DNA from: Acidobacteriota bacterium | GTDB lineage: Bacteria; Acidobacteriota; Blastocatellia; UBA7656 | NCBI GenBank assembly: GCA_016201275.1 | Contig: JACQDB010000023.1 | Coordinates: 1 to 46,422, forward strand | DNA length: 46,422 nt | Direction of reading: 5' to 3' | Part shown: piece by piece, positions 1 to 44,631 of the stretch | How the letters are laid out: every line of letters begins with the position of its first letter | How positions within the stretch are numbered: position 1 is the stretch's first letter | Notes under the pieces: model-generated | Database searches by the model: none | What the model saw: only the letters and a program-made list of their open reading frames with translations | Told to the model about the DNA's origin: nothing | Translations under genes and position numbers: made by a program

Positions 1-3000
1 ATTGATCGCCGTCGAAGTTTCATCTTCAATTGGTTGTCCCTTCAATTCGCGCACCGTGCGTTCGAGCATCTGGGTGTATAAATCGAAACCTATGGCATCT
101 ATGTGACCGGATTGCTGGCCGCCTAAAAGATTGCCCGCGCCGCGCAATTCCAAATCCAGCGCCGCTATGCGAAAGCCCGCGCCCAAATCGGAAAACTCAC
201 GAATCGCCGCAAGCCTACGGCGCGCAATATCGGTCAAGCTGTCTTCGGTAGGAATCAACAGGTAAGCGTAAGCGCGGCGATTCGAGCGCCCGACTCTGCC
301 GCGCAATTGATACAACTGCGACAAGCCATAATGGTCTGCACGGTTGATGATGATGGTGTTGGCCAACGGTATATCTATGCCGTTTTCGATAATCGTCGTC
401 GCCACTAAAACATCAAGTTCGTGACGCACAAATTTCATCAACACATCTTCCAACTCTTTATCATCCATCTGTCCGTGGCCTACGCCTATGCGGGCTTCGG
501 GAACCAGGCGCGTCAGGAGTTCGGCAATGGTGTAAATCGTTTCGACGCGATTGTGAACAAAGAACGCCTGGCCGCCGCGTTGCAATTCCAGTTCAACGGC
601 GCTGCGTATGACGTTGTCGGAAAATGGTACGACATGGGTTTGAATGGCGAGCCGATCACGCGGTGGCGTTTCAATCACAGACATATCGCGCAAGCCCGCC
701 AAAGACATATTCAAGGTGCGCGGAATCGGCGTCGCCGACATCGCCAGCACGTCAACTTTTTTTCGCATCTGCTTGATGCGTTCTTTGTGCGCCACGCCGA
801 AGCGTTGTTCTTCGTCAACGATGAGCAAGCCCAAATCTTTGAACTTCACATCCTTGGATAACAAACGGTGCGTGCCGATCACGATGTCAACGCCGCCCGC
901 TTCCAGCGATAGCAAGGTCGCCTTCTGTTCTTTCGTGGAACGAAAGCGCGACAACATATCTATGCGAACCGGAAAAGCCGCAAAGCGTTTTTGAAAGGTC
1001 TTGAAATGTTGAAAGGTCAACACCGTCGTCGGCGTCAATACCGCGACCTGCTTATTTTCCATCACCGCCTTGAAAGCGGCTCTCATAGCCACTTCGGTCT
1101 TGCCGTAACCTACGTCGCCGACAATCAAACGGTCAGCGGGTTGGCGGTTTTCCATGTCGGCTTTGACATCTTCGATAGCGGTTTGCTGATCGGGCGTCAA
1201 TTGATATTCAAAGGCGTCTTCAAACTCCTGTTGCCAGGGCGAGTCCGCGCCGTAAGCGTGACCGCCTACAAGTTTGCGTTCGGCGTAGAGTTTCAACAAC
1301 TCTTCGGCCATATCGCGCATGGCGCGTTTGACACGCGCTTTGGCTTTTTGCCAGCCGATGCCGCCGAGTTTATCGAGCGTCGGTTTGTGGCCTTCGCCCG
1401 CCGAATAGCGTTGCACCAAATCGAGTCGCTCGACTGGAACATAGAGCTTTGCGCCTTCGGCAAAAGTCAGCAACATGAATTCGCGCACGCCGCTCGAAGC
1501 GCGTTGAATGCCCATAGCGGTGTTGCCAGTGGGCGCGCCTGCGGTGGCGATTTGATTCAAACCTTGAAACTGGCCTATACCGTGATCAACGTGAACGACA
1601 TAATCGCCGACCTTCAAATCGCCGAGGTCGGACAGAAAAGCCGAAGCTTTGCGTTGTTTGCGTTGTTGTCTGGCAACGGCGCGTTGCTGCACGCTGCGCT
1701 CAAGGTCGCCGAAGACATCGCTTTCGGTCAGAAGCGTCAGTTTGGCCGCCGGTAGCGCAAAGCCGTTCGCCGGTCTGCCGATGGTGACGACGCGATTAGT
1801 CAATAAAGACGGGCGACTTTGCGCCTGTGGGTGGTGCGACGAAGTGCTTTGCGGAGTGAGCGACGGCAATAGTTGTGCGGTGACTTCATACTCGTTGAGC
1901 ATTTCCACGACGCGCTCGGCCAGCCCCAAACTCGGCATGGCAAACAGCGTCATTTGCTGACTCAGACTCTCTTTCAAATCGCGTGCGAGTTCCTGCACGC
2001 GCCCGTAATAACGCCGCGAAGATTGCGAGATAAGAGAGACATCGGGCGTCGCTTCGGTGATTGGAAAAAGGAAAAGATGTCGCGCTGAAAGTCCCGCGTC
2101 TGGCGTTACTGAAAGTCTGGCGTCTGGCGTCCGGTGTCCGGCGTCCGGCAATGCAAGTCTGCTGTCTGCCGGGTGTGTTTCATCAACGGCGTCAAGTTCC
2201 AGGCGTTCTTCATCGGCAGGGTTTTGATTTTCGGACGCCGGACGCCGGACACCAGACGCCAGACTTTGTTGGTCAGATTCCTGAGTGCGGATTTCGGTAA
2301 CGATGTCTCTGACTTCGGATTCCAGATCCGAACCATCCAAGCGGAATTGCTCATCGGTGGTGGCAGCGGCGCGACCCAGTAAACGAAATTCGATGCGGGT
2401 GGCGGCGGCAAATTTTTCGCGCAACTCTTCGACGGTTAAAAACAAACGCTCAGGCGATAAGACTAAATCACCTGCGTCGTCGGCCTGTGCGAAGCGTTCG
2501 TGCAGATGCGCGTAAAACTCAGCGGCGCGCTTCTCAAGCTCTGCGGGTTCATCAATGATGAGCAGCGCGTCTTGGAAATAATCAAATGCGGTGGCGTCGA
2601 GCGGACGCATCAAGGGCAATAAATATTCCCAGCCTTCAAACCATTCGCCGCGTTCGGCGTGCGCCAGGCGTGCGCGCAAATCTCTGCGATAGCGGTCGTC
2701 CGCCCAATGCTTTTTTGCGGCTTCTGCCCATTGCATAAACTCTTCGCGGCGCACCGACAGTTCACGCATAGGCACTAAATTCGACTCATTGACTTTGCCT
2801 ATGGAGCGTTGGGTGTCGGGGTCAAATTCGCGTATCGAATCCACCGTGTCGCCGAAAAATTCGATGCGATGCGGAGCGTCGTGCGCCGGTGAAAAGACAT
2901 CCAGGATGCCGCCGCGCAAGCTGAATTCGCCGACCGCGCCTACGGGTTCCTGGCGCACATAACCGCTGGAGATCAACAAATCTACAATCAATTCCGGCGG

Positions 3001-6916: not shown

Positions 6917-9037
6917 ATGAAAGGAAGTACACTTTTGATTACAAACAAACTCTTTGCAACCGGCGCGACTTTGGCTTTGCTGTTTGCGGCAGTGCCGCAA
7001 CCGGCGCTTCAGGCGCAGAGCCTGAAGGCGACGCTGGCCGCGCCACAGGAAATCAAACCCGACAATCGCTCCAAAGCTTTGCAGAAATATCTGGAAGCAC
7101 AGAATTACGAACAGGCGGGCAACTATTCGGCAGCGGTAGCGGCTTACAAAGAAGCCATCGCTTTAGACCCGAACTCCGCCGAATTGCGCGTCGCTTTCGG
7201 GGCGCTCTATTTGAAAAACCGCAACGTCATAGACGCCGAAACGCAGGCGCGTGAAGCCATGAAAGTTGAGCCGACCAATCTGGAAGGCCGCAAATTACTG
7301 GCGCGGATTTTTATTTCGCAATCCTTCGTCGGCAGCACTTTTGATAAAGACAAAGCTCGCGCCGCCATCAAGGAACTGGAAGAGATTGCCAAGAGCGACC
7401 AGCACGCCAAGATTGAACTTGGCGATAAACCGATTCCCGTGCTGGGCGTGATTGGCGATCTGTACGAGTCTTTGGAAGAGAAGGACAAAGCCATAGAAGC
7501 TTTCAAGAAAGTCTCCGAAAGCGATGCCTCCGCCGACACCGCGCACATCCAACTGGCGCAAATCTATTTTCAGAAAAATAAATTCCGCGAAGCCGCCGCC
7601 GCCGCCCGCAAAGCTTACGACCTCAATCCCAAGTCCATACAATACGCGGGCTTGCTGGCCAAATCGCTGCTGCGTTTAGGCCGCACCCAAGAAGCGCTGG
7701 ACATTTACCGCAAAGCTTTGAACATCAAAGACCCGGATAAAAACGGCAAGCCCAATAAAGCGCCGGATGACGATGATACAGAGGGCTTGAAATCGGCGAT
7801 GGGCATTTCGCCATTGACCTTCGATTATGCCGAGGCGCTGGTGTTTGCGGGCAAATACGACGAAGCGATCAAGCAGGTTGATCCGGTGTTGAAACTGGTA
7901 CGCAAAGACAGCCCCTTGTACCTTGCTGGCATACGCATCAAGGTGGATGCCAGCAGGCGTTCAGGCAAACGCGAAGAGGCGGTCAAGACCTTGGAAGAAG
8001 CGCTCAAGGGGCAGGACGTTTCCGAAAGTTTGCCGGTGTTGTATTCGCTGGCGGAAACTTACGAAGAGATGCAGAAATTCGACAAAGCCGTACAGACTTA
8101 TGAAGAAGCTCTCAGCGCTATCGTCAACCCCGATGGCACGGTCGGCAATCGCGAAGAAGACAAACAGAATGCCGGAGCCGTGTTGACGCGCATCGGCCTA
8201 GCCTATCGCACCGCTGGCCAACGGGACAAAGCCATGGAAACTTTCGAGCGCATGAGAAAAGTTCTTGGTGCCGACAGTCCACGCGCTGACCAACTCATCA
8301 TAGACACCTTGTTGAATGAAGGAAAAAATCAAGCAGCGCTGGACGCCGCCACCGCCGCCACCAAGCGTTTCCCGGATGAGCGTTCCTTCAAAATCACCCG
8401 CGCTCAGGCGGCCAGTCGTCTGGGGAATATGCAGGAGGTCGAAGCCTCTTTGCGGCCTCTGCTGAAAAACACGGTCGAGGATGCTGATATTTACCTGGCC
8501 TGGGCCAGCCTTCAACTCGAAGCCAATCAATTGAAACAGGCCGAAGAGACAACGCGCAAAGCCATCAATCTGGAACCCAACGACATCGGCCCATTGATTA
8601 CGCTGTCCTTGATTCAGGAGCGCCAGGATAAATTCAAAGATGCCGAAGCGAGTTTACGCAAAGCGCTGGAGATTGACCCGGAAAATGCTACGGTGCTAAA
8701 TAACTTGGGCTATTACCTGGCCGAACGCGGTGAGCGTTTGCCGGAAGCGATTTCCTTGATTCAACGCGCCGTCAATATCGAGCCGACCAACGGCTCGTTT
8801 ATGGATTCGTTGGGCTGGGTCTTTTTCAAGCAAGGCAAAATTCCTGAAGCGCAAAAGTATTTAGAGCAGGCGGTAATTTATTCGCCGCGTTCGGCCACCA
8901 TTCACGACCACCTCGGCGATTTGTACAAAAAACTGGGACAGTTGGACAAGGCACGCGCCAAGTGGGAAGACGCTTTGAAACTGGCTACCGAGCCCGAAGA
9001 GATCAAAAAGATCAAAGCCAAACTCGGTAAAAAATAG
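6917..9037 (+). CDS. Exported tetratricopeptide-repeat protein
   Basis: A 706-residue protein with a signal peptide (residues about 8-33, ending in ALQAQ) followed by TPR units over nearly the whole length. Clear examples are AGNYSAAVAAYKEAIALDPN near 67 and the last units containing LGYYLAERGERLPEA, LGWVFFKQGKIPEAQKYLEQ and LGDLYKKLGQLDKARAKWE. TPR solenoids bind protein partners, here probably in the periplasm or at the outer membrane. The ATG at 6917 has no good ribosome-binding site. A TTG at 6935, preceded by AAAGGAAG, would also leave an intact signal peptide (LITNKLFATG) and may be the true start. The stop codon TAG abuts the first heptad of the repeat at 9037. Confidence 0.8.
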   Translation: MKGSTLLITNKLFATGATLALLFAAVPQPALQAQSLKATLAAPQEIKPDNRSKALQKYLEAQNYEQAGNYSAAVAAYKEAIALDPNSAELRVAFGALYLKNRNVIDAETQAREAMKVEPTNLEGRKLLARIFISQSFVGSTFDKDKARAAIKELEEIAKSDQHAKIELGDKPIPVLGVIGDLYESLEEKDKAIEAFKKVSESDASADTAHIQLAQIYFQKNKFREAAAAARKAYDLNPKSIQYAGLLAKSLLRLGRTQEALDIYRKALNIKDPDKNGKPNKAPDDDDTEGLKSAMGISPLTFDYAEALVFAGKYDEAIKQVDPVLKLVRKDSPLYLAGIRIKVDASRRSGKREEAVKTLEEALKGQDVSESLPVLYSLAETYEEMQKFDKAVQTYEEALSAIVNPDGTVGNREEDKQNAGAVLTRIGLAYRTAGQRDKAMETFERMRKVLGADSPRADQLIIDTLLNEGKNQAALDAATAATKRFPDERSFKITRAQAASRLGNMQEVEASLRPLLKNTVEDADIYLAWASLQLEANQLKQAEETTRKAINLEPNDIGPLITLSLIQERQDKFKDAEASLRKALEIDPENATVLNNLGYYLAERGERLPEAISLIQRAVNIEPTNGSFMDSLGWVFFKQGKIPEAQKYLEQAVIYSPRSATIHDHLGDLYKKLGQLDKARAKWEDALKLATEPEEIKKIKAKLGKK

Positions 9038-9193
9038 TCTGTAGTCATTAGTCCCTAGTCATTAGTCCGTAGTCCGTAGTAGAGAGATTTCGCGCTGGGC
9101 AATTGGCGCTTTTTGCCTGAAAAGTTTAAACGATTCGCGCCAAGCAAAAGGGAGCGCGCAAAAGCTAAGGACTAGGGACTAATGACTAATGAC
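9037..9193. repeat. Heptad-arm hairpin element (intercistronic)
   Basis: Left arm 9037-9078 is six 7-nt units: GTCTGTA, GTCATTA, GTCCCTA, GTCATTA, GTCCGTA, GTCCGTA. Right arm 9166-9193 is four complementary units: TAAGGAC, TAGGGAC, TAATGAC, TAATGAC. The element starts on the last base of the upstream stop codon and ends 18 nt before the next start. The core (9079-9165) contains a smaller inverted repeat (gcgctgggcaattggcgc and gcgcgc-rich flanks). Confidence 0.9.
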
Positions 9194-12785: not shown

Positions 12786-12891
12786 GTCTTTAGTCCCTAG
12801 TCCTTAGTCCTTAGTTTGTTAGTGAACACACTTGAAACTCTGGTGTTACTGTCAAACCAAGACTAAGGACTAAGGACTAAGGACTAAGGAC
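12786..12891. repeat. Heptad-arm hairpin element (rplY-pth gap)
   Basis: Left arm 12786-12813: GTCTTTA, GTCCCTA, GTCCTTA, GTCCTTA. Right arm 12864-12891: four copies of TAAGGAC. The element begins 6 nt after the rplY stop and ends 7 nt before the pth ATG. The last unit supplies AAGGA (12886-12890), 8 nt from the pth start, so it can serve as the ribosome-binding site. That sequence is the part expected to pair with the left arm. Confidence 0.92.
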
Positions 12892-12898
12892 TACTGTC

Positions 12899-13507
12899 AT
12901 GAAACTGATTGTAGGGTTAGGCAATCCGGGTCCGCAGTATGAAATGACGCGGCACAATCTGGGTTTCATGTTGATTGACCGGCTGTTTGAAAATGCCCAT
13001 GGCCATCGCTTTCGCGCAGAAGCCAACGCTGTGGTTGCGCCGATAGCCTTAGCCGATGAGCGCGTCTTGTTGGTCAAGCCGCAGACCTTCATGAATCTGA
13101 GCGGCAATGCGGTTCACCCATTGCTCGAAAAGTATGGCGATGGCGACCCTGTGAATCTGCTGGTGGTTTGCGATGATGTGGCTTTGCCGTTTGGTATGCT
13201 GCGGGTTCGCGGACGCGGCAGTGCCGGTGGACAAAAAGGTTTGCAATCTATTATTGAGCGCGTCGGCAGTCAGGATTTTCCGCGCTTGCGTCTGGGCATC
13301 AAGCCCGAACACGCGGTTGGCAAGTTGCCGGACTTTGTTCTTTCACCAATTCCCAAACGGGAGCAGACGCTGCTCAATCAGACGCTTGACCGCGCCTGTG
13401 AAGCAGTCGCCGCCATCATCCGGGATGGCGTGGAACGCGCTATGTCGTTATTCAACGAGCGCGTTAAAACAGAGGTCGGCAAGTCGTTGTCGAATTCCGG
13501 TCAATGA
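12899..13507 (+). CDS. pth: Peptidyl-tRNA hydrolase
   Basis: A 202-residue cytosolic esterase that releases tRNA from peptidyl-tRNA that has dropped off ribosomes. The N-terminus LIVGLGNPGPQYEMTRHNLGF contains the conserved Asn9 and catalytic His19. VKPQTFMNLSG and VCDDVALPFGMLRVRGRGSAGGQKGL carry the substrate-binding Asn and catalytic Asp. Length is typical. The only plausible Shine-Dalgarno sequence is AAGGA from the last heptad of the upstream repeat. A 31-nt palindrome begins directly after the stop codon and probably terminates transcription. Confidence 0.95.
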   Translation: MKLIVGLGNPGPQYEMTRHNLGFMLIDRLFENAHGHRFRAEANAVVAPIALADERVLLVKPQTFMNLSGNAVHPLLEKYGDGDPVNLLVVCDDVALPFGMLRVRGRGSAGGQKGLQSIIERVGSQDFPRLRLGIKPEHAVGKLPDFVLSPIPKREQTLLNQTLDRACEAVAAIIRDGVERAMSLFNERVKTEVGKSLSNSGQ

Positions 13508-13542
13508 CCTGAAAGCGGCTACCAGAGCCACTTTCAGGGTTT
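13508..13542 (+). terminator. Hairpin after pth made by a 31-nt REP-like repeat
   Basis: The palindrome 13508-13538 (CCTGAAAGCGGCT, loop, AGCCACTTTCAGG) starts on the base after the pth stop and is followed by GTTTTA. It can act as an intrinsic terminator. Near-identical 31-nt palindromes occur at 21743-21773 (opposite orientation, inside the M28 peptidase gene) and 24003-24033. Confidence 0.75.
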
Positions 13543-14380: not shown

Positions 14381-14440
14381 GGAAGTCTGGGCAAGCTTGA
14401 AGGTCTGGGAAGGCTTGAAGGTCTGGGAAGTCATGCAGGT
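14381..14440. repeat. Imperfect 18-nt tandem repeat between rpsR and rplI
   Basis: Alternating 9-nt units of the type AGGTCTGGG and AAGGCTTGA run about three times from 14381 to 14440. A weak complementary counterpart lies at about 14465-14500 (CAGACTGGC, CAGACTC). It recalls the heptad-arm elements but has a 9-nt period and poor arm symmetry. Confidence 0.6.
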
Positions 14441-14511
14441 CGTGACGCTCAGGACTATCAAACTTCGTCAGACTGGCAAGACGCCTCAGACTCTTTGGAG
14501 GGTTTTAGATA

Positions 14512-15228: not shown

Positions 15229-18200
15229 ATGACGCGCTCCTCTCCAAGCGACCCTTTTTTCGAGAAAGGGCTTCCCTCCAATCTTGAGGCGGAGCGTTCC
15301 ATACTCGGCGCGATCCTGCTCGATAATTCCGTCTGCAATCAGGCGATGGAATTGATGCGCCGCGACGATTTCTTTCTCGACTCGCATCGCCGCATCTACG
15401 ACAAAATGATTCTCCTCAGCGAGCGCGGCTCCTCGATTGATCTGGTTACGCTGTCGGAAGAGTTGCGCCGCGCTATGGAGTTCGAGCAGATTGGCGGCGC
15501 GACTTATATCGCCTCCTTGATAGACGGCGTGCCGCGCACCGACACCATCGAGCCGTATGTCAAAATCGTCAAGTCGAAAGCCATCCTACGAAAATTAATC
15601 ACCGCCTCGAATCAAATTATCGCACGCGCTTTCGATGAAGAAGACGACCCCGACGTAATTTTAGATCAGGCCGAGCAGTTGATTTTTCAGATTGCCGAAG
15701 ACCGCGTTCGCGCCGGCTTTCAACATATAGGCGATGTCGCGCAGCGCCGCCTCGAACAAATCGAACAGATGTCCGGGCGCACCGAAATGATCACCGGTGT
15801 ACCGACCGGCTTCACCGATTTCGACCAGATGACTTCGGGCTTGCAGCGCCAGGATTTGATTATCATCGCCGCTCGCCCATCAATGGGCAAAGCCCAACCT
15901 TTGGATGCCAAGGTGCTGACCGAAAACGGCTGGAAGACGATGGGCGAAGTGCAGGTCGGCGACGATCTAGCTTCAATTGATGGTCGCCCGTCAACCGTCA
16001 TCGGCGTGTTCCCGCAAGGCATCAAGCAGATTTATCGCGTGACTTTTTCGGATGGTCGCTCGACGGAGTGTTGTGGCGAACATTTATGGCGCGTCTATTA
16101 TCGCCATTGGCCTGAACCGAAGATACTGACCACAGATGAAGTGGCAGCGTTGCTCAAGTGCAAGCGTTACCAAAAGCGTTTGTGGATTGATCTGTGTTCG
16201 GGCGATTTCGGACACCACGACCCCTTGCCGATAGACCCTTGGGTTTTGGGCTTGCTCATCGGCGAAGGCGATTTCCATGCCTTACGATTTTCAACGGCAA
16301 GCGCTACGGTTTTGCAACAAATGGCTGTAGGCTTGGGCGCAGAGTTCGCGCTGAGTGCTGCCGGAAATTATGATTATCGAATCATGCAGGCCGCCGGTCA
16401 TCGCCGTGCCGAACGCTTCGGCGTCTGGCCAAACCCTGTGTGCGAGCAGTTAAAAGCGTTGGGTTTGTGGGGCAAACGTAGTGAAGAAAAATTCATCCCC
16501 GAACTTTATAAACACGCCAATCGCCAATCCCGTCTGGCTTTATTACAAGGTCTGCTCGATGCCGATGGTTGGGCGGAGCGGCATGGTTCGGTAAGATTTT
16601 CTACTGCAAGCGAACGACTCGCGGATGACGTAGTTGAGTTGGCGCGTTCGCTGGGCGCGTGGGCAACGAAAAAGAGTAAGCAGACCGCGTTTACCTACAA
16701 AGGCGAAGCGAAACCGGGACGGCCTGCCTTTGTCATCAATATCGCGCACCCTCAACCGGACAGTTTGTTCACCTTGCCGGAAAAGCGCGCTCGCGTTGCC
16801 GCCGACCGAAAGCGCCGCAAAATGCCGACCTTCGTTTCCATTGAACCGGTGCGCCAAACCGAAGCCCGTTGCCTGGCGGTCACGCATCCCACGCAGCTTT
16901 ACATTACGGATGATTATGTGGTCACGCATAACACGGCACTGGCTTTGAATATGGCGTTGTATGCGGCGAAGAACGGCAATTCCGTAGGCGTATTCAGTCT
17001 GGAAATGTCCGCCGAACAACTGGTCTCGCGCCTGCTGTGTTCGGAAGCCCGCGTGGACGCGCATCGCCTGCGAACCGGTTATTTGAATCAGGAAGAATGG
17101 GCAAGACTTGCCGATGCCTTGCGGCGTTTGTGTGAAACCAAAGTCTTCATAGATGACACACCGGGCGCAAGCGTTTTGGAGATGCGCGCCAAGACGCGCC
17201 GCTTGAAGGCCGAACACGGCTTGGATTTATTAATCATAGACTACCTGCAATTGATGTCGGGGCGCGGCAGGATTGAATCGCGCCAGCAGGAGGTCTCGCA
17301 AATCTCCCGCGATTTGAAGATTCTCGCCAAAGAGCTTGACGTGCCAGTGATTTCGCTTTCGCAGTTGTCACGCGCCACCGAAACTCGCAGCGACCATAAG
17401 CCGCAACTCAGCGACCTGCGCGAATCGGGATGCTTGGCAGGCGACAGCCTGGTGACGCTTGCCGATAGCGGTGCAGAAGTTCCGATTCGTAATTTGGTCG
17501 GGCAATCGGGCTTTGCCGTTTGGGCTTTGAATGAAGTGACCATGCAGTTGGAGTGGGCGATGGTCAGCAATGCGTTTTCAACTGGTGTGAAGCCGGTCTA
17601 TAAAATGACGACGCGATTGGGCAGAGAGATTCGCGCTACGGCAAATCACAAGTTCCTCACCTTTGCCGGATGGAAGCGTCTGGATGAATTGCATATCGGT
17701 GAGCGATTGGCAGTGCCACGCCGTGTGCCAAGCCCTGCAACGCAAACCATGACGGATGCGGAACTGGCTCTGCTCGGGCATTTGATAGGCGATGGCTGCA
17801 CGCTGCCCCGCCACGCCATTCAATACACCACCAGAGAAAAAGACCTGGCGGATTTGGTCGCCTCGCTTGCCGTCGAAGTCTTTGGCAGCCAAGTGGTGCC
17901 GCGCATCAAACAGGAGCGCACCTGGTATCAGGTCTATCTTTCGTCGGCGCGTCATCATACCCACAACGTCAGAAGCGCGGTGACCGAATGGCTCGATGAA
18001 CTGGGCGTATTCGGCCTGCGGTCACACGAAAAGCGCGTACCGAAAAAAGTTTTTGAACAACCACAAGAAGCTATCGCGCTTTTCCTGCGCCACCTGTGGG
18101 CTACCGATGGTTGCATCCGGTTTAAGACCGCCGGAAAAAAACACCTGCCTTATCCCGCGATTTATTATGCGTCGAGCAGTAAAGAACTGGCAGCAAATGT

Positions 18201-18912
18201 GCAATCTTTGTTGCTGAGAATTGGTATCAATGCGCGTTTAAGAAGAGTTCCCCAGGGTACAAAAGGCCGAGACCAATATCACGTCATCGTCGGTGGTAAG
18301 GGCGACTTTGAGAAGTTTGCAGAGAAGATAAAGGCCGTTGGAATTTATAAAATGACTTCTCTGGAAGAGGTTCAATGCAGTATTAAAAATTCTGTAGCAA
18401 ATACCAATATAGATACGATTCCCAATTCCATCTGGCGACAGTATGTGTTTCCCGCAATGCAGGAGCGCGGCATCACTTCCCGACAAATGATGCAAAGAAT
18501 CAATACGGCATATCGCGGTACAAGAGTTTACGATCAAAACGTCAGCCGTGACCGTGCAGCACGAATCGCAGAAGCAATCGGCTCTTCGCAATTGATGAAG
18601 TTGGCGGAAAGCGATGTTTACTGGGATGAGATAGTAAGCATAGGCATAGACGGAGAAGAAGCCGTTTATGATTTGACCGTCGAAAAAGAGCATAACTTTA
18701 TTTCTTGCAACATTTACGCGCATAATTCCATTGAGCAGGACGCCGACGTCGTGTGTTTTATCTATCGCGATGAAGTCTATAATCCGACGGATGAAAATCG
18801 CGGCACGGCGGAGTTGATCGTCGGCAAACAACGCAACGGCCCTACGGGGAGCGTGGCGCTCGCTTTCCTCAAAGAGTTCACGCGCTTTGAAAATATGTAC
18901 AGAGGTGAATGA
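15229..18912 (+). CDS. dnaB: Replicative DNA helicase DnaB precursor with two inteins
   Basis: A 1227-residue precursor. Removing inteins of 347 and 432 residues leaves a 448-residue DnaB, normal for the family. DnaB is the hexameric 5'-3' helicase at the replication fork. The N-domain starts GLPSNLEAERSILGAIL. The RecA-like domain shows RPSMGK (residues 216-221) joined after splicing to TALALNMALYAAKNG, then SLEMSAEQLVSRLL, LLIIDYLQLMSG, and SDLRESG joined to SIEQDADVV. Both inteins therefore split ATPase motifs, and activity needs both splicing events. AGGAA lies 9 nt before the ATG. Placement between rplI and alr is common. Confidence 0.95.
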   Translation: MTRSSPSDPFFEKGLPSNLEAERSILGAILLDNSVCNQAMELMRRDDFFLDSHRRIYDKMILLSERGSSIDLVTLSEELRRAMEFEQIGGATYIASLIDGVPRTDTIEPYVKIVKSKAILRKLITASNQIIARAFDEEDDPDVILDQAEQLIFQIAEDRVRAGFQHIGDVAQRRLEQIEQMSGRTEMITGVPTGFTDFDQMTSGLQRQDLIIIAARPSMGKAQPLDAKVLTENGWKTMGEVQVGDDLASIDGRPSTVIGVFPQGIKQIYRVTFSDGRSTECCGEHLWRVYYRHWPEPKILTTDEVAALLKCKRYQKRLWIDLCSGDFGHHDPLPIDPWVLGLLIGEGDFHALRFSTASATVLQQMAVGLGAEFALSAAGNYDYRIMQAAGHRRAERFGVWPNPVCEQLKALGLWGKRSEEKFIPELYKHANRQSRLALLQGLLDADGWAERHGSVRFSTASERLADDVVELARSLGAWATKKSKQTAFTYKGEAKPGRPAFVINIAHPQPDSLFTLPEKRARVAADRKRRKMPTFVSIEPVRQTEARCLAVTHPTQLYITDDYVVTHNTALALNMALYAAKNGNSVGVFSLEMSAEQLVSRLLCSEARVDAHRLRTGYLNQEEWARLADALRRLCETKVFIDDTPGASVLEMRAKTRRLKAEHGLDLLIIDYLQLMSGRGRIESRQQEVSQISRDLKILAKELDVPVISLSQLSRATETRSDHKPQLSDLRESGCLAGDSLVTLADSGAEVPIRNLVGQSGFAVWALNEVTMQLEWAMVSNAFSTGVKPVYKMTTRLGREIRATANHKFLTFAGWKRLDELHIGERLAVPRRVPSPATQTMTDAELALLGHLIGDGCTLPRHAIQYTTREKDLADLVASLAVEVFGSQVVPRIKQERTWYQVYLSSARHHTHNVRSAVTEWLDELGVFGLRSHEKRVPKKVFEQPQEAIALFLRHLWATDGCIRFKTAGKKHLPYPAIYYASSSKELAANVQSLLLRIGINARLRRVPQGTKGRDQYHVIVGGKGDFEKFAEKIKAVGIYKMTSLEEVQCSIKNSVANTNIDTIPNSIWRQYVFPAMQERGITSRQMMQRINTAYRGTRVYDQNVSRDRAARIAEAIGSSQLMKLAESDVYWDEIVSIGIDGEEAVYDLTVEKEHNFISCNIYAHNSIEQDADVVCFIYRDEVYNPTDENRGTAELIVGKQRNGPTGSVALAFLKEFTRFENMYRGE
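15892..16932 (+). other. Intein 1 of DnaB, class 3 type with LAGLIDADG endonuclease
   Basis: A 347-residue insertion (precursor residues 222-568) between Walker A Lys221 and Thr569. It begins Ala-Gln-Pro-Leu, so it lacks the usual Cys1/Ser1. It has the three class 3 residues: Trp287 in GEHLWRV (block B, two after His285), Cys548 in EARCLAV (block F position 4) and Thr566 in VVTHN (block G), ending His567-Asn568 before Thr+1. LLIGEGDF and LLQGLLDADGW are the paired LAGLIDADG motifs of a homing endonuclease. In class 3 inteins the block F cysteine starts splicing through a branched intermediate, so the missing Cys1 does not imply loss of activity. Confidence 0.88.
17431..18726 (+). other. Intein 2 of DnaB, class 1 with LAGLIDADG endonuclease
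   Basis: A 432-residue insertion (precursor residues 735-1166) between RESG and SIEQDAD. It shows Cys1 (CLAGDSLVTLADSG), block B TANH (Thr804, His807), the block F-like segment VYDLTVEKEHNF, terminal His1165-Asn1166 and Ser+1. LAGLIDADG motifs are LLGHLIGDGCT and LRHLWATDGC. A further segment of about 90 residues before block F (SIWRQYVFPAMQERGITSRQ..., RDRAARIAEAI) looks helical and may bind DNA. From memory, the same insertion point and a similar layout are found in the cyanobacterial (Synechocystis) DnaB intein. Confidence 0.9.
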
Positions 18913-19019: not shown

Positions 19020-20168
19020 ATGCAAGCAAAGCAATTTAACCACCAATTTCAGCGACCGACCTGGGCGGAAATCCATCGCGAAAATCTCGCTCATAATTTT
19101 CGCGTGATGCAGGAAGCGGTAGGCAGTCGCGTTGCCATTATGCCCGCCGTCAAAGCCAATGCTTATGGTCACGGCGCAATTGAATGCGCGCAAGTGTTCG
19201 AGCGCGAAGGCGCACAGTGGTTCGGCGTGGCGTTGCCGGAAGAGGCTTCGCGGTTGCGCGAGGCGGGAATCACGAAGCCAATTTTAGCGCTCGGCGGATT
19301 CTGGGAAGGCCAGGAAGAGTTCATCATCGAACGCGAAATCACGCCGGTGATGTTTCGTTTGGATTTGCTTGCGAGACTCAACGAGGCGGCAAAGAAATTC
19401 AAGGTCACGGTTGCTTATCATGTGAAAGTGGACACCGGCATGGGCAGGCTCGGCGTGCCGTTTTCAGAGTTCGATAAATTTCTTGAGGCAGCGGCGCTGT
19501 TTGATCATCTGCGACTCGATGGCTTGATGACGCATTTCGCTTCGGCTGATGATGTGGAGGGCGTGGCTTTCACCAAGCAGCAATCGGTGATCTTTGAAGA
19601 TGCTTTGCGATTGGTGCGTGAGCGAGGCTTTGCGCCGCGCTGGATTCATCAGGCCAACAGCGCCGCAACTCATGCCTATCCGCAGACGCATGGCAATCTG
19701 GTGCGCCTGGGCGGCGTGCTGTACGGCTTCTGGCGCGATGCGACCAAACGCGATGTTGCGCCGCTGGATTGGCGACCGGTGTTGTCTTTGCACACGCGCA
19801 TCACGCATTTGAAAACCGTTGCAGCGGGAACCCCGCTTGGCTATGGCGGCACGTTCATCACGAAGCGCGAAAGCCGCATAGCGACGCTGGCTATCGGTTA
19901 CGCGGACGGTTTGCGGCGCACGCTCTCGAATCGCGGACAGGTGTTAGTGCGCGGTGAATTCGCACCGATTGTCGGGCGCATCAGCATGGACTTGACGCTC
20001 GTGGATGTGAGCGATATTGGCGATGCGACATTGGGCGACGAGGTTGTTATAATCGGTCGGCAAGGTGAACAAGAGATCACCGCCGAAAGGGTAGCGGCGC
20101 AACTCGAAACCATCTCTTATGAAGTGACGTGCAGCATCAGCGACCGCGTACCAAGAGTTTATAAATAG
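19020..20168 (+). CDS. alr: Alanine racemase
   Basis: A 382-residue PLP enzyme making D-alanine for peptidoglycan. PAVKANAYGHGA contains the PLP lysine (Lys45). HVKVDTGMGRLG and the catalytic tyrosine motif IGYADGLRR are present, and GRISMDLTLVDVS is typical of the C-terminal beta domain. Length is normal. The ribosome-binding site is weak. The TAG stop lies within the first copy of a 31-nt direct repeat that continues into a MITE-like element. It follows dnaB after 107 nt. Confidence 0.95.
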   Translation: MQAKQFNHQFQRPTWAEIHRENLAHNFRVMQEAVGSRVAIMPAVKANAYGHGAIECAQVFEREGAQWFGVALPEEASRLREAGITKPILALGGFWEGQEEFIIEREITPVMFRLDLLARLNEAAKKFKVTVAYHVKVDTGMGRLGVPFSEFDKFLEAAALFDHLRLDGLMTHFASADDVEGVAFTKQQSVIFEDALRLVRERGFAPRWIHQANSAATHAYPQTHGNLVRLGGVLYGFWRDATKRDVAPLDWRPVLSLHTRITHLKTVAAGTPLGYGGTFITKRESRIATLAIGYADGLRRTLSNRGQVLVRGEFAPIVGRISMDLTLVDVSDIGDATLGDEVVIIGRQGEQEITAERVAAQLETISYEVTCSISDRVPRVYK

Positions 20169-20303
20169 AGCGTATCGCATCAATAGATTTTCTATTTAGA
20201 GCGTGTCGCATCAATGGATTTTCTATCCAGATATTGTAGGTGATGGTTTAACCATCCACAAAATATGGGATATTTCTGGAATTCTGCAACACGCTCTAAA
20301 TAG
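20166..20303. mobile_element. Small MITE-like element with tandem left end
   Basis: Two tandem 31-nt direct repeats (20166-20196 and 20197-20227, 28 of 31 identical) begin TAGAGCGTRTCGCATCAAT. An exact 15-bp inverted repeat (CTATTTAGAGCGTGT at 20192-20206, reverse complement at 20289-20303) bounds 112 bp. The interior can fold imperfectly (ccagatattgt... against ...atatttctgg). No open frame is present. The start overlaps the alr stop codon. It may be a non-autonomous insertion-sequence derivative; no transposase is in the window. Confidence 0.6.
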
Positions 20304-20401
20304 ATGGCAAAAGTCAAACCGCGTGCAGTTGAACCGGCGATAAGAATTTTTTTTACGCCGAACAACTTTTGCTTAGGTGCAAAAAGACAGTGAAAGGACT
20401 T

Positions 20402-22300
20402 ATGAAAATTAAAAACGGTTTCTTCATCAAAAACGCTTTTCTGTGCAGCGCAGTTGTCGCGCTGGCTGTAACGCTGAATCCGTTCGCTGCGTTGGTCAGA
20501 GCGCAACAAACGACAGCCGTAAAGAAAGACGCCAGCCTTGGCAAAGTTTCTGCCGAAGCCATCAAGCGCCACGTTACGTTTTTGGCGTCGGACAAATTGC
20601 AAGGGCGTCGCGCCGGAACGCCTGAAGCCGACGAAGCCGCGAAATATATCGCCAGTGAATTTCGTAAAGCCGGATTGAAGCCTCTGACCGCCGCCGGATT
20701 TTTCCAACCCTTCACCTTTGTTTCGGGCGTCAAACTTGGCGCAGGAAATAATTTTCAGTTAAAGGGTGTCAATGATTCACGGTTGCTGAAAACTGGCGAG
20801 GACTATATGCCGCTGGCATTTTCATCATCGCAACCGGTACAGGGAGAACTCCTGTTTATCGGCTATGGCATCAGCGCTCCGGAACTGCAATATGACAACT
20901 ACGCGGGCGTTGACGTGAAAGGCAAAATCGTGGTGATTCTGCGCGGCAGTCCCGATGGCAATAACCCGCACGGCAAGTTCGCCGATTTCACTGCGCCGGG
21001 TATGGAGATTCAAAAGAAGACCATCAAAGCACGCGAGAAGGGCGCAAGCGGCGTGATTTTTATCAGCGAAGAAACCAAATTTAGCAATGATCGGTTGGCG
21101 AAGATGCGCCACGATTTGAATTTTCTTGACGCAGGGATTCCCACTGTGGTCGTGAGCAAACAAATTGCAGAATCACTCTTTGCGGCTGCGAAAACGACCT
21201 TTGCAAATGCTATCAAACACGCCAACGAATCCGCCGCGCCGCTGAATTTTGCAAACACGGTTGCCAACTTCAAAACCGACGTGGTGAAAATCAACGGCAA
21301 GAGTTCCAATGTGGTCGGCGTCATCGAAGGCAGCGACGCGAAATTGAAATCCGAATACCTCATCATCGGCGCGCATTATGACCACCTCGGCTTAGGTGGG
21401 TCGGAATCTCTGGCCGCCAATCCCGAAGGCCAGATTCATCACGGCGCGGACGACAACGCCTCCGGCACCTCGGCCTTGCTGGAACTCGCAAGAGTGATCA
21501 ACAGCGACCGCGCCAAACTAAAACGCAGCGTTGTCTTCATGGCGTTTTCTGCCGAAGAACTCGGCTTACTCGGTTCCGCCGCTTATACCAAAAACCCACT
21601 CGTGCCGCTTGCTTCAACCGTAGCGATGCTGAACATGGATATGGTCGGACGCCTGCACGACCGCTCGCTTTTCGTTGGCGGTGTCGGCACTTCGCCGGTC
21701 TGGAAGCCGCTGCTTGATAAATTGAACGGCGAAACCAAAAGCCCTGAAACTGGCTCTGGTAGCCGGTTTCAGCTTGGCATAGGGCAAGACGGCCTTGGCC
21801 CCAGCGACCATCAATCGTTCTACATCAAAGATGTGCCGGTGTTATTTTTCTTCACCGGGTCGCACGAGGATTATCACAAACCGTCGGACACTGCCGATAA
21901 AATCAACGCCGAAGGCACACGGCAAATCGCCGAACTGGTGCGCGACATTGCGATACAGGTTGCCAACGAACCGGAACGCCTCGCCTTCACCAAAGTAAAA
22001 ACGGAAACTCCCAATCAAGGCCGACGCGGTGGCTTTCGCGTCTCGCTTGGCACGGTGCCGAGTTATGCCGAACAGAGCGACGGTTTGAAACTCGACGGCG
22101 TGCGCCCCGCTTCGCCAGCCGAAAAAGCCGGACTCAAAGCGGGCGATGTGATTGTGAAACTCGCCGCCTTCCCGATTAAAAATGTTTACGACTACACGGC
22201 GGCCTTGAGCGAATTGAAAGCCAACGAAACGATAGACGTGGTGATTCGCCGCGATGGCAAAGAACTGACGTTGAAATTGACGCCTGAAAAAAGGCAATAG
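20402..22300 (+). CDS. Exported M28 zinc aminopeptidase with PA and PDZ domains
   Basis: A 632-residue exported protease. The ATG at 20402 has AAAGGA upstream and gives a signal peptide ending near AALVRAQ. A PA-type domain (about 110-250; FIGYGISAPELQYDNYAGVDV, split around the Pro) is inserted ahead of the M28 core. Zinc ligands and catalytic residues: His325 in HYDHLG, Asp351 region GADDNASG, Glu385-386 in AEELGLLGS, Asp413 in NMDMVGR, and His492 in EDYHKPSDT. A C-terminal PDZ domain (about 535-632) contains VRPASPAEKAGLKAGDVIV. Residues about 448-458 (ETGSGSRFQ region) are encoded by a 31-nt REP-like palindrome. The gap to fabI is a 70-nt perfect palindrome. Confidence 0.9.
   Translation: MKIKNGFFIKNAFLCSAVVALAVTLNPFAALVRAQQTTAVKKDASLGKVSAEAIKRHVTFLASDKLQGRRAGTPEADEAAKYIASEFRKAGLKPLTAAGFFQPFTFVSGVKLGAGNNFQLKGVNDSRLLKTGEDYMPLAFSSSQPVQGELLFIGYGISAPELQYDNYAGVDVKGKIVVILRGSPDGNNPHGKFADFTAPGMEIQKKTIKAREKGASGVIFISEETKFSNDRLAKMRHDLNFLDAGIPTVVVSKQIAESLFAAAKTTFANAIKHANESAAPLNFANTVANFKTDVVKINGKSSNVVGVIEGSDAKLKSEYLIIGAHYDHLGLGGSESLAANPEGQIHHGADDNASGTSALLELARVINSDRAKLKRSVVFMAFSAEELGLLGSAAYTKNPLVPLASTVAMLNMDMVGRLHDRSLFVGGVGTSPVWKPLLDKLNGETKSPETGSGSRFQLGIGQDGLGPSDHQSFYIKDVPVLFFFTGSHEDYHKPSDTADKINAEGTRQIAELVRDIAIQVANEPERLAFTKVKTETPNQGRRGGFRVSLGTVPSYAEQSDGLKLDGVRPASPAEKAGLKAGDVIVKLAAFPIKNVYDYTAALSELKANETIDVVIRRDGKELTLKLTPEKRQ
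21743..21773 (-). repeat. 31-nt REP-like palindrome within the M28 peptidase gene
   Basis: On the minus strand it reads GCTGAAACCGGCTACC then AGAGCCAGTTTCAGG. It differs at only a few bases from 13508-13538 (plus) and 24003-24033 (plus). It is 31 nt with no length change, is read in the peptidase frame, and encodes Pro-Glu-Thr-Gly-Ser-Gly-Ser-Arg-Phe-Gln between conserved M28 motifs. Confidence 0.75.
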
Positions 22301-22304
22301 CGTC

Positions 22305-22374
22305 GTTACTGGTTATTGGTTACTGGTTACTGGTTATTCGAATAACCAGTAACCAGTAACCAATAACCAGTAAC
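22305..22374. repeat. 70-nt perfect palindrome with heptad arms (M28-fabI gap)
   Basis: Each arm is exactly five 7-nt units: GTTACTG, GTTATTG, GTTACTG, GTTACTG, GTTATTC, then the exact reverse complement with no spacer (centre TTC|GAA). The first base is 5 nt after the peptidase stop. Further related units continue to about 22390 (caataac, ctataac, caatgac), ending 15 nt before the fabI start. Confidence 0.95.
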
Positions 22375-22404
22375 CAATAACCTATAACCAATGACGGAGA
22401 GACT

Positions 22405-23172
22405 ATGTTATTGAACGGAAAGACAGGGATTGTTTTTGGCGTGGCGAACAAACGCAGTCTGGCCTGGGCGATTGCCAAACGTGCTGCCGAACACGGCGCG
22501 AAAATCGCGCTCACCTATCAGGGCGAGCGCTTGAAAGAGAATGCCGAAGAGCTTGCGGCAACCCTTGATAATCCGCTTTTGCTGCCCTGCGATGTGGCCA
22601 AAGATGAAGACATCGCTACGGTTTTCGAGAGTGTCAAAGAGCACTTCGGCGCGTTGGATTTCGTCGTTCACGGCATCGGGTTTGCGCTCAAAGAAGAACT
22701 CCAAGGCGACTATGTTAACACTTCACGCGAAGGCCACCGCATCGCTCAGGACATCAGTGTGTATTCCTTGACGGCGATTGCCAAACACGCCGCGCCGTTG
22801 ATGGAAGAGCGCGGCGGCAGCATCTTGACGTTGACGTATCTGGGCGGCGAGCGCGTCATCCCGCATTACAATGTGATGGGCGTAGCCAAAGCGGCGCTCG
22901 ATATGAGCGTGCGCTATCTGGCGGCGGACTTGGGGCAACGCGGCATTCGCGTCAACGCCTTGTCAGCAGGGCCGATTAAGACTTTGGCGGCGGCAGGCAT
23001 TTCCGGCTTCAATAAAATTCTCGAACACATGAGAAACAACGCGCCGCTGCGTCGCAACGTCACGCAAGACGAAGTGGCGGATGCGGCGCTGTTCCTGCTT
23101 TCCGATTTATCACGCGGCGTCACCGGCGAATTGCTGCACGTTGACAGCGGCTATCACGTTGTCGGAATGTGA
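22405..23172 (+). CDS. fabI: Enoyl-[acyl-carrier-protein] reductase (NADH)
   Basis: A 255-residue short-chain dehydrogenase-type enzyme that reduces enoyl-ACP in the last step of each fatty-acid elongation cycle. GVANKRSLAWAIA is the FabI-specific cofactor loop. The catalytic Tyr155 and Lys162 are in HYNVMGVAKAAL (Tyr-X6-Lys), and SAGPIKTLAAAGI is the substrate loop. Length and C-terminus are normal. CGGAGAG sits 5-10 nt before the ATG, just outside the repeat element. Target family of triclosan-type inhibitors. Confidence 0.96.
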   Translation: MLLNGKTGIVFGVANKRSLAWAIAKRAAEHGAKIALTYQGERLKENAEELAATLDNPLLLPCDVAKDEDIATVFESVKEHFGALDFVVHGIGFALKEELQGDYVNTSREGHRIAQDISVYSLTAIAKHAAPLMEERGGSILTLTYLGGERVIPHYNVMGVAKAALDMSVRYLAADLGQRGIRVNALSAGPIKTLAAAGISGFNKILEHMRNNAPLRRNVTQDEVADAALFLLSDLSRGVTGELLHVDSGYHVVGM

Positions 23173-23915: not shown

Positions 23916-23920
23916 GATTC

Positions 23921-24082
23921 GTCCTTCGTCCTTAGTCATCAGTCCTTAGTCCGTAGCTTTTCACATTCAGATTTACGCTGTCCGCAATGGTCAATGCAAA
24001 GTGCTGAAAGTGGCTACAGGAGCCAGTTTCAAGTCATTGCTAAGGACTAGGGACTAAGGGCTAGGAACTAAGGACTGATGAC
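23921..24082. repeat. Heptad-arm hairpin element between queD and queE
   Basis: Plus-strand left arm 23921-23955: GTCCTTC, GTCCTTA, GTCATCA, GTCCTTA, GTCCGTA. Right arm 24041-24082: TAAGGAC, TAGGGAC, TAAGGGC, TAGGAAC, TAAGGAC, TGATGAC. It reaches the queD stop codon on one side and lies 5 nt from the queE start on the other. Its core contains the 31-nt REP-like palindrome at 24003-24033. Confidence 0.9.
24003..24033 (+). repeat. 31-nt REP-like palindrome in the core of the que element
   Basis: GCTGAAAGTGGCTACAGG followed by AGCCAGTTTCAAG. It shares arms and spacing with 13508-13538 and the reverse complement of 21743-21773; differences are mainly in the loop. Confidence 0.75.
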
Positions 24083-24447
24083 TATTCCCCAAAATAATCG
24101 CAGCGTGAGGTGCAGGTTTCGCGTATGGTGACGCGATGCAAAAGTCCCTGCAAGCGTTCCGCGAGGCGCTGCCAAATCCAGCGCGCCAGGTTTTCGCTGG
24201 TGGCATTTTCTAATCCGTCAATCTCGTTCAAGTAATAATGATCTAATTGTTTTCGCAGCGGCTCGAACGCCGCGCTGATTTCTGCGTAGTCTATCAACCA
24301 GCCTTTTTCTTCATTCACCGTGCCGCGCACCGCGACTTCGCAACGAAACGAATGACCGTGCAGCCGCGCACATTTGTGATCTTCCGGCACCATCGGCAAA
24401 CGGTGCGCTGACTCAAACGAAAACTCTTTTACCAATTCCACAATCAT
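24082..24447 (-). CDS. queD: 6-carboxy-5,6,7,8-tetrahydropterin synthase
   Basis: A 121-residue zinc enzyme of the PTPS fold that makes 6-carboxy-tetrahydropterin from dihydroneopterin triphosphate for queuosine. The zinc ligands are His15 (FESAHRLP), His30 and His32 (LHGHSF), and the catalytic cysteine is Cys26 (DHKCARLHGH). DYAEISAAFEPLRKQLDHYYLN and ENATSENLARWIW fit the QueD group when read in parts. It is the upstream gene of a queD-queE pair. queC and queF are not in this window. No Shine-Dalgarno sequence precedes the ATG. Confidence 0.94.
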   Translation of the reverse strand: MIVELVKEFSFESAHRLPMVPEDHKCARLHGHSFRCEVAVRGTVNEEKGWLIDYAEISAAFEPLRKQLDHYYLNEIDGLENATSENLARWIWQRLAERLQGLLHRVTIRETCTSRCDYFGE

Positions 24448-44535: not shown

Positions 44536-44539
44536 ATTA

Positions 44540-44616
44540 GTCCCTAGTCCTTAGCTTTGTTGATCGCGAAAATTCCGGCAACCAAAACTAAGGACTAAAG
44601 ACTAAGGACTAGGGAC
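44540..44616. repeat. Heptad-arm hairpin element (SUMF1-Gfo gap)
   Basis: Left arm 44540-44553: GTCCCTA, GTCCTTA. Right arm 44589-44616: TAAGGAC, TAAAGAC, TAAGGAC, TAGGGAC. It begins 4 nt after the upstream stop and ends 15 nt before the next start, where an independent AAGGAG ribosome-binding site lies outside the element. Confidence 0.9.
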
Positions 44617-44631
44617 TCTCAAGGAGATGAA

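Follow-up and report, generated by a model that had tools for sequence, protein, structure and literature searches.

A perfect palindrome of tandem 7-nt units between a peptidase gene and fabI in an Acidobacteriota genome, read as one of a putative population of intercistronic hairpins

The palindrome between the peptidase gene and fabI

The DNA analysed here is a stretch of 46,422 nucleotides (nt), hereafter the window, from an Acidobacteriota bacterium (GTDB lineage Bacteria; Acidobacteriota; Blastocatellia; UBA7656), corresponding to positions 1 to 46,422 of contig JACQDB010000023.1 in GenBank assembly GCA_016201275.1 (forward strand). The genome under study (G000) comprises 6.84 Mb in 162 contigs. 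The element in question is a perfect palindrome at positions 22305-22374 of the window, located in the 104-nt gap between the gene of an M28 peptidase (20402-22300) and fabI, encoding enoyl-ACP reductase (22405-23172). An earlier note, prepared from the sequence alone, had described a 70-nt palindrome built of heptads (7-nt units) and lacking a spacer, and this description was accurate: the two arms measure 35 nt each, are 100% complementary and are separated by 0 nt, and their heptad make-up is as the note had given it (Table 1).

The 5' arm opens 4 nt past the TAG stop codon of the peptidase gene. Because the heptad array continues imperfectly on the 3' side, to about position 22395, the arm pair as a whole is unequal and the palindrome forms its matched core; the fabI start lies 9 nt further. 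When the gap (22301-22404) was folded as RNA, a free energy of -57 kcal/mol was obtained, compared with a mean of -18.9 kcal/mol for shuffled sequences (z -12.2), and 0 of 200 shuffles were equally stable.

Table 1. Features of the palindrome locus and other heptad repeats of the window
Feature	Coordinates	Strand	Remark
Stop codon (TAG) ending the M28 peptidase gene (20402-22300)	22298-22300	+	hairpin starts just 3' of the stop
5' arm, five GTTAYTG-type heptads	22305-22339	+	
3' arm, reverse complement of the 5' arm without mismatch	22340-22374	+	
3' heptad array, imperfect continuation	22375-22395	+	
GGAG, Shine-Dalgarno-like, between hairpin foot and fabI start (22405)	22396-22399	+	sequence inspection
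Heptad inverted repeat (TAGTCCG/TAGTCAT type), TPR-protein gene to CAP-domain gene	9035-9193		
Heptad inverted repeat (TTAGTCC), ribosomal protein L25 gene to peptidyl-tRNA hydrolase gene (pth)	12791-12893		
Heptad inverted repeat (TTAGTCC/TTCGTCC), queD/queE (minus strand)	23916-24087		arms 73% complementary
Heptad inverted repeat (TTAGTCC), sulfatase-modifying-factor-like gene/GFO/IDH/MocA oxidoreductase gene, co-directional	44537-44617		short left arm by eye
Heptad inverted repeat (GTCTGGC) within the mfd reading frame	2115-2264		

Heptad repeats across the genome

For the detection of related loci, the 111 nt around the palindrome were used as a similarity query, and at least 128 matches were obtained in G000 (40 of 62 first-look candidates scored). 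A pattern of three GTTAYTG units gave 59 forward and 77 reverse matches, compared with 6 and 14 for the reversed control, and no match in the 38 other genomes searched from this class. A further 38 loci of G000 were fetched, picked among the matches listed, and the class total may therefore be larger. Heptad clusters of the class, written GGTTAYT, were present in 37 of the 38 (none in L123, two each in L096 and L116), making 39 clusters, of which 31 had two arms and 8 had one arm. The order GGTTA-arm, spacer, TAACC-arm was found in all 31 two-arm clusters and likewise at the palindrome locus; spacers between the detected arrays measured 6 to 407 nt (0 at the palindrome).

The clusters were strongly biased in position: 38 of the 39 lay between co-directional genes and one between divergent genes (binomial p 6e-6), relative to a background of 255 intergenic regions of at least 40 nt in 446 kb of G000 (174 tandem, 40 convergent and 41 divergent). 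Of the 30 two-arm clusters between tandem genes, 27 had an array positioned -10 to +11 nt from the stop codon, and 15 had one equally close to the start codon. A scan of stretches of G000 and its relatives, blind to heptad class, gave a similar picture: inverted period-7 arms were present in 30 gaps between called genes (26 tandem, 2 convergent, 2 divergent), and 22 of the 26 tandem gaps had an array equally close to the stop codon. For three of these 22, the next start was distant (approximately 150-206, 476-509 and 696-750 nt, by the start chosen), and in one convergent gap (L160) one heptad arm was located at each of the two stop codons. Genes were called with a custom script that made some errors: in relative G002 it missed rpsR, an 87-aa open reading frame (ORF) that ends 4 nt from an array listed as 267 nt from a stop, and it put the start of queE some 140 nt too distant from the array (143 nt listed). 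Both were left uncorrected in the stop and start counts. The constant GGTTA to TAACC order had prompted the idea of telomere-like head-to-head fusions, which was dropped: the arrays sit at stop codons, the junctions concerned also hold repeats in relatives, and a different class of G000 (GGACTGA, at nuoH) has the opposite skew.

The 7-nt period extended beyond this class. In the 446 kb of G000 (twenty 20-kb stretches and the window), tandem arrays detected at the same score numbered 32 for period 7 and 18 for period 14, and at most 3 for each other period from 4 to 13. Inverted period-7 arm pairs numbered 12, compared with 2, 1 and 1 for the control periods 8, 9 and 10. A rule that the 5' arm is T-rich was considered and rejected: it is true for GGTTAYT and TTAGTCC and fails in relatives (left arms AGTCAGA, GAGGATC and GCAGAAG).

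The same junctions in related genomes

Six relatives were compared (G001 to G006), including Chloracidobacterium sp. UBA7656 (G003) and Blastocatellia bacterium nzgw74 (G005). Inverted period-7 arm pairs numbered 3 in G002, 7 in G003, 6 in G004, 3 in G006, 1 in G005 and 0 in G001 (13 kb sampled), and the same heptad layout was thus seen in five of the six sampled family members. By eye, the M28/fabI junction contained GGTTTYT arms in G002, TTGTCCC in G003, AAATTGA in G004 and GGTTCCG in G006, and nothing in G001; a heptad inverted repeat was therefore present in 4 of 6 relatives (3 of 6 by the automatic detector). G005 had a different, non-heptad palindrome there, a 34-nt perfect one upstream of fabI (GCGTAACGCTGATCCGCGCGGATCAGCGTTACGC; loci L130/L029). 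The earlier note had offered recent origin as one explanation of the exact mirroring, which is not borne out by these relatives: the hairpin at this junction is probably old. GGTTTYT was also considered as the genome-wide stand-in for GGTTAYT in G002, but only 2 matches were found in G002 and 33 in G004, so that a simple replacement is unsupported.

At the L25/pth junction, TTAGTCC in G000 corresponded to AGTCGGT in G002, CAGTTTT in G003, TAGTCCG in both G004 and G006, GTCATTG (with an N gap) in G005, and a gap of just 6 nt in G001. The TPR/CAP, prfA, nuoH and murD junctions followed the same pattern with more absences. Across these six junctions, which were picked because G000 carries a repeat there, and the six relatives, the detector found a repeat in 13 of 36 cases (G006 5, G004 4, G002 2, G003 1, G005 1, G001 0). 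This count is low, since several repeats visible by eye were missed: fabI in G003 (one continuous array), pth and prfA in G002 (degenerate) and pth in G005 (N gap). For other periods, the same 36 junctions yielded one 8-nt repeat, and none with units of 5, 6, 9, 10 or 11 nt.

In G002 to G004, 7 of 18 orthologous junctions carried a repeat, compared with 14 of 182 control junctions (Fisher p 0.0008; the control sets contain each genome's own fabI junction). G001, G005 and G006 were excluded from this test, having 5 control junctions each. Heptad profiles were also more alike at orthologous junctions (0.59, 47 pairs) than elsewhere (0.485, 228 pairs; random heptads 0.476; p 0.0002), and the excess persisted when G006 was omitted (p 0.0036). 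The TPR/CAP junction was the exception, with values of 0.29-0.44 outside the same-genus pair. As repeats are more frequent and heptads more similar at orthologous junctions, many hairpins appear to have been inherited at their junctions while the repeat drifted in both arms.

For four of the six junctions, RNA folds were compared with those of approximate shuffles (60 each). Heptad-bearing gaps gave z values of -4.0 to -13.6 in 16 of 17 cases, compared with -3.0 to +0.1 for four G001 gaps and the G003 prfA gap. Further afield, at least one period-7 array was present in 5 of 20 additional genomes of the class (single stretches of 1.5 to 20 kb), and 78 other fabI loci (477 kb) contained 3 arrays of period 7, a single Terriglobia locus accounting for two, and 8 of period 6.

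Interpretation, alternatives and known systems

We consider it reasonably probable, on comparative sequence grounds, that the palindrome is one of a population of intercistronic mRNA hairpins made of tandem 7-nt units, which resemble repetitive extragenic palindromic (REP) elements in position and may do so in function. The starting points are direct observations: the anatomy of the locus, the co-directional bias, the closeness to stop codons and the commoner presence at orthologous junctions despite heptad change. In the proposed layout, the stop codon of gene A is followed, usually after 0-11 nt, by a heptad arm, a variable loop, the inverted arm and, often after 0-20 nt, the start of gene B. 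Transcription would yield a long double-stranded RNA hairpin right past the stop codon. Within an operon mRNA, this hairpin could act much like a REP element, whether by shielding the 3' end of the upstream cistron, by giving RNase III a cut site between the cistrons or by slowing terminating ribosomes. The next ribosome-binding site would often stay exposed. The position at the stop codon, the missing U-tract and the presence of RNase III in the genome (234 bits, cut-off 166) fit such an intercistronic mRNA hairpin.

Under this proposal, pairing rather than sequence would be kept by selection, and the arms would grow and change by 7-nt slippage with occasional arm-to-arm template switching, so that the heptad drifts jointly in both arms. 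Replication template switching is reportedly a route by which RNA hairpins are formed and kept and the arms of inverted repeats are evened out (PMC8794818, PMC8604942). The zero spacer and perfect mirror at 22305-22374 would represent one end of a distribution. More tentatively, the family as a whole might possess inherited junction hairpins that are free in sequence and constrained in self-complementarity, each junction being its own heptad lineage that evolves by mutation, slippage and template switching. The presence of pairing with different heptads at the same junctions in several genera points to the hairpin, and not the motif, as the selected unit, and the heptad hairpins could serve as a natural series across genera for studying how pairing in long RNA stems is maintained by replication template switching.

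Several observations weigh against the intercistronic hairpin reading. One-arm GGTTAYT clusters, which were left out of the stop count, adjoined a stop codon this closely in only 1 of 8 cases and a start codon in 6 of 8. Some junctions were empty in relatives (L25/pth in G001, with 6 nt; nuoH in G003, with about 6 nt; prfA in G004, with no visible gap), which implies that the hairpin is dispensable, and only about 4-11% of the sampled tandem junctions carried a heptad hairpin in G000 and G002 to G004. Detector hits at the six junctions were absent from G001 and limited to one in G003 and one in G005. The likeness test rested on 26 arms picked by eye. The heptad gap at prfA in G006 folded no better than its shuffles (z -1.2), and the non-heptad palindrome gap at fabI in G005 folded strongly as well (z -6.2). 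Unit-order mirroring was not significant in the 28 loci outside the GGTTAYT class (p 0.27). Finally, the repeat in mfd, at residues 411-461 approximately of the 1166 read and outside the two segments (39-372 and 568-1161) aligned with the best solved Mfd chain, indicates that such repeats can sit in coding sequence too.

The strongest alternative, possible although we favour it less, treats the heptad hairpins as neutral or selfish fold-back repeats that can form or land at any site, with purifying selection sparing mainly those at operon junctions, where no gene or promoter is broken; array edges at stop and start codons would then simply be what insertion into a gap only a few nt long produces. 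The 6-nt empty L25/pth junction of G001 and the inverted repeat within the mfd frame agree with this account, as does the lineage-specific expansion of the class, the GGTTAYT pattern matching only G000 among 39 genomes. In addition, the loops of two hairpins (L096, 1643-1803; L122, 1618-1766) have an exact 25-nt stretch in common in opposite orientation, as expected of a small mobile element, which these loops may hold. However, divergent and convergent gaps, which are longer (medians 441 and 194 nt; tandem 174 nt), hold just 1 of the 39 clusters, arrays adjoin the stop codon even in several gaps of 300-900 nt, and across several genera repeats are commoner at orthologous junctions, where the heptads are related and pairing is present.

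We regard as improbable the explanation of the earlier note in which gene conversion between the arms, or an active templating mechanism, keeps a recent palindrome perfect. The mirroring is exact in the assembled sequence, but less striking than had been claimed: exact arm-to-arm runs of at least 35 nt occurred in 5 of 32 GGTTAYT two-arm loci (43, 39, 39, 36 and 35 nt), among which the palindrome ranked fifth, compared with 11 of 992 cross-locus pairs. Arms of the same locus were more similar than cross-locus arms of the class (permutation p 0.002), and shuffling the unit order of one arm gave p 0.009 over 57 loci, which lends arm-to-arm templating modest support; individually, only 5 of the 57 loci fell below 0.05 (the palindrome locus at p 0.03, uncorrected), and the lack of significance outside the GGTTAYT class weakens whole-arm copying as a rule. 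The heptad inverted repeats at the M28/fabI junction of relatives also argue against this explanation, and no enzyme was identified. The perfect mirroring at 22305-22374 is thus only mildly unusual, and the small unit-order excess makes it the well-matched tail of a population and not in itself evidence of a templating enzyme. Regarding the SbcCD-type nucleases, which the earlier note had named as normally cutting such palindromes, an SbcD/Mre11-like ORF of 438 aa (L239, 3923-5239) scored 58.4 bits, under the family cut-off of 77.65, and no SbcC was recognised by eye among the six ORFs of at least 200 aa in the surrounding 8.5 kb, where no SbcC-directed search was made.

It is very unlikely that the arrays are G-quadruplexes or sites of a repeat-binding protein, as proposed for GGGAATC in Xanthomonas or TAACTGA in Beggiatoaceae: tandem heptads do stand beside gene ends, as in those reports, but CAGTTTT, AAATTGA, TTAGTCC and GGTTAYT lack G-tracts and differ by junction and genome, which indicates that no single motif is kept. 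GGG was absent from the GTTAYTG heptads at 22305-22374 and present in a few heptads elsewhere in the family (TPR/CAP in G003, murD in G004). An intrinsic terminator of the peptidase gene has a negligible probability, for although a strong hairpin directly follows the stop codon, no T-run follows the 3' arm, no terminator-like site was called at 22301-22404 (8 such sites were called, all elsewhere) and fabI starts 9 nt past the array.

Explanations offered so far for bacterial heptameric repeats invoke quadruplexes, binding proteins or polymerase slippage. REP palindromes are reported to bear a GTAG or CGTC tag (PMC3733652). No common tag of this type was seen by eye in the flanks of GGTTAYT loci, although CGTC happens to occur at 22301-22304, beside the palindrome, and heptads vary from junction to junction. 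E. coli REP elements are hairpins formed by palindromes between cistrons or at 3' ends; some lie within 15 nt of a stop codon and affect translation (PMC12306157). The heptad hairpins are likewise intercistronic and close to the stop codon, but they have only their architecture in common with one another, whereas REP elements possess a consensus.

The closest published kind appears to be the GGGAATC and GGGGA(C/T)T heptamers of Xanthomonas and Nostoc. These are tandem 7-nt units whose convergent (inverted) pairs number 70 and 75 in two Xanthomonas genomes, located mostly between aligned ORFs and near stop codons, with few between divergent ORFs; the majority of the Xanthomonas repeats lie between the same genes in two species with varying length and sequence, and the authors state that the functional role is still to be clarified (PMC4692102). 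Tandem intergenic units, convergent pairs, aligned ORFs, few divergent sites and closeness to stop codons are thus common to both. There, however, one G-rich motif is described and read as quadruplex-forming, whereas the GTTAYTG heptads at 22305-22374 have no GGG-tract and each genome has many heptads, most without G-tracts, which change at orthologous junctions while pairing is constant. What the present data would add is this diversity of heptads, and their change across genera at fixed junctions.

In two further reports, Beggiatoaceae TAACTGA forms abundant intergenic heptamer arrays, as here, but nearly all are direct (169 direct sets, one indirect repeat; PMC4679880), and the P6b stem of the Nostoc trnL (UAA) group I intron is built of 7-nt motifs whose classes were repeatedly replaced while the stem-loop was kept (PMC4476775). 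The P6b stem is a single intron site, whereas the hairpins described here occupy many intercistronic sites in another phylum; the family-wide heptad lineages, if real, would be its genome-wide counterpart. No report of such repeats in Blastocatellia was found among the titles and abstract openings listed from open-licence literature.

Other repeats and genes of the window were recorded in passing. A separate short palindrome of the type CTGAAA...GGCT...AGCC...TTTCAG may occur at 21738-21773, 24003-24038 and about 13507-13540 (by eye, and possibly by chance), one copy lying within the loop of the queD/queE heptad hairpin. An 18-nt tandem repeat (GTCTGGGAAGGCTTGAAG; 3.2 copies) occupies 14385-14441, in the gap before 14512; in G002, a heptad inverted repeat of GGAGTCT units takes its place in the syntenic gap. 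A 31-nt direct repeat with an inverted partner was found at 20154-20226 and 20285-20304, past the ORF at 19020-20168. The 1227-aa ORF at 15229-18912 reads, by eye from its translation, as a replicative helicase DnaB split by two intein-like blocks.
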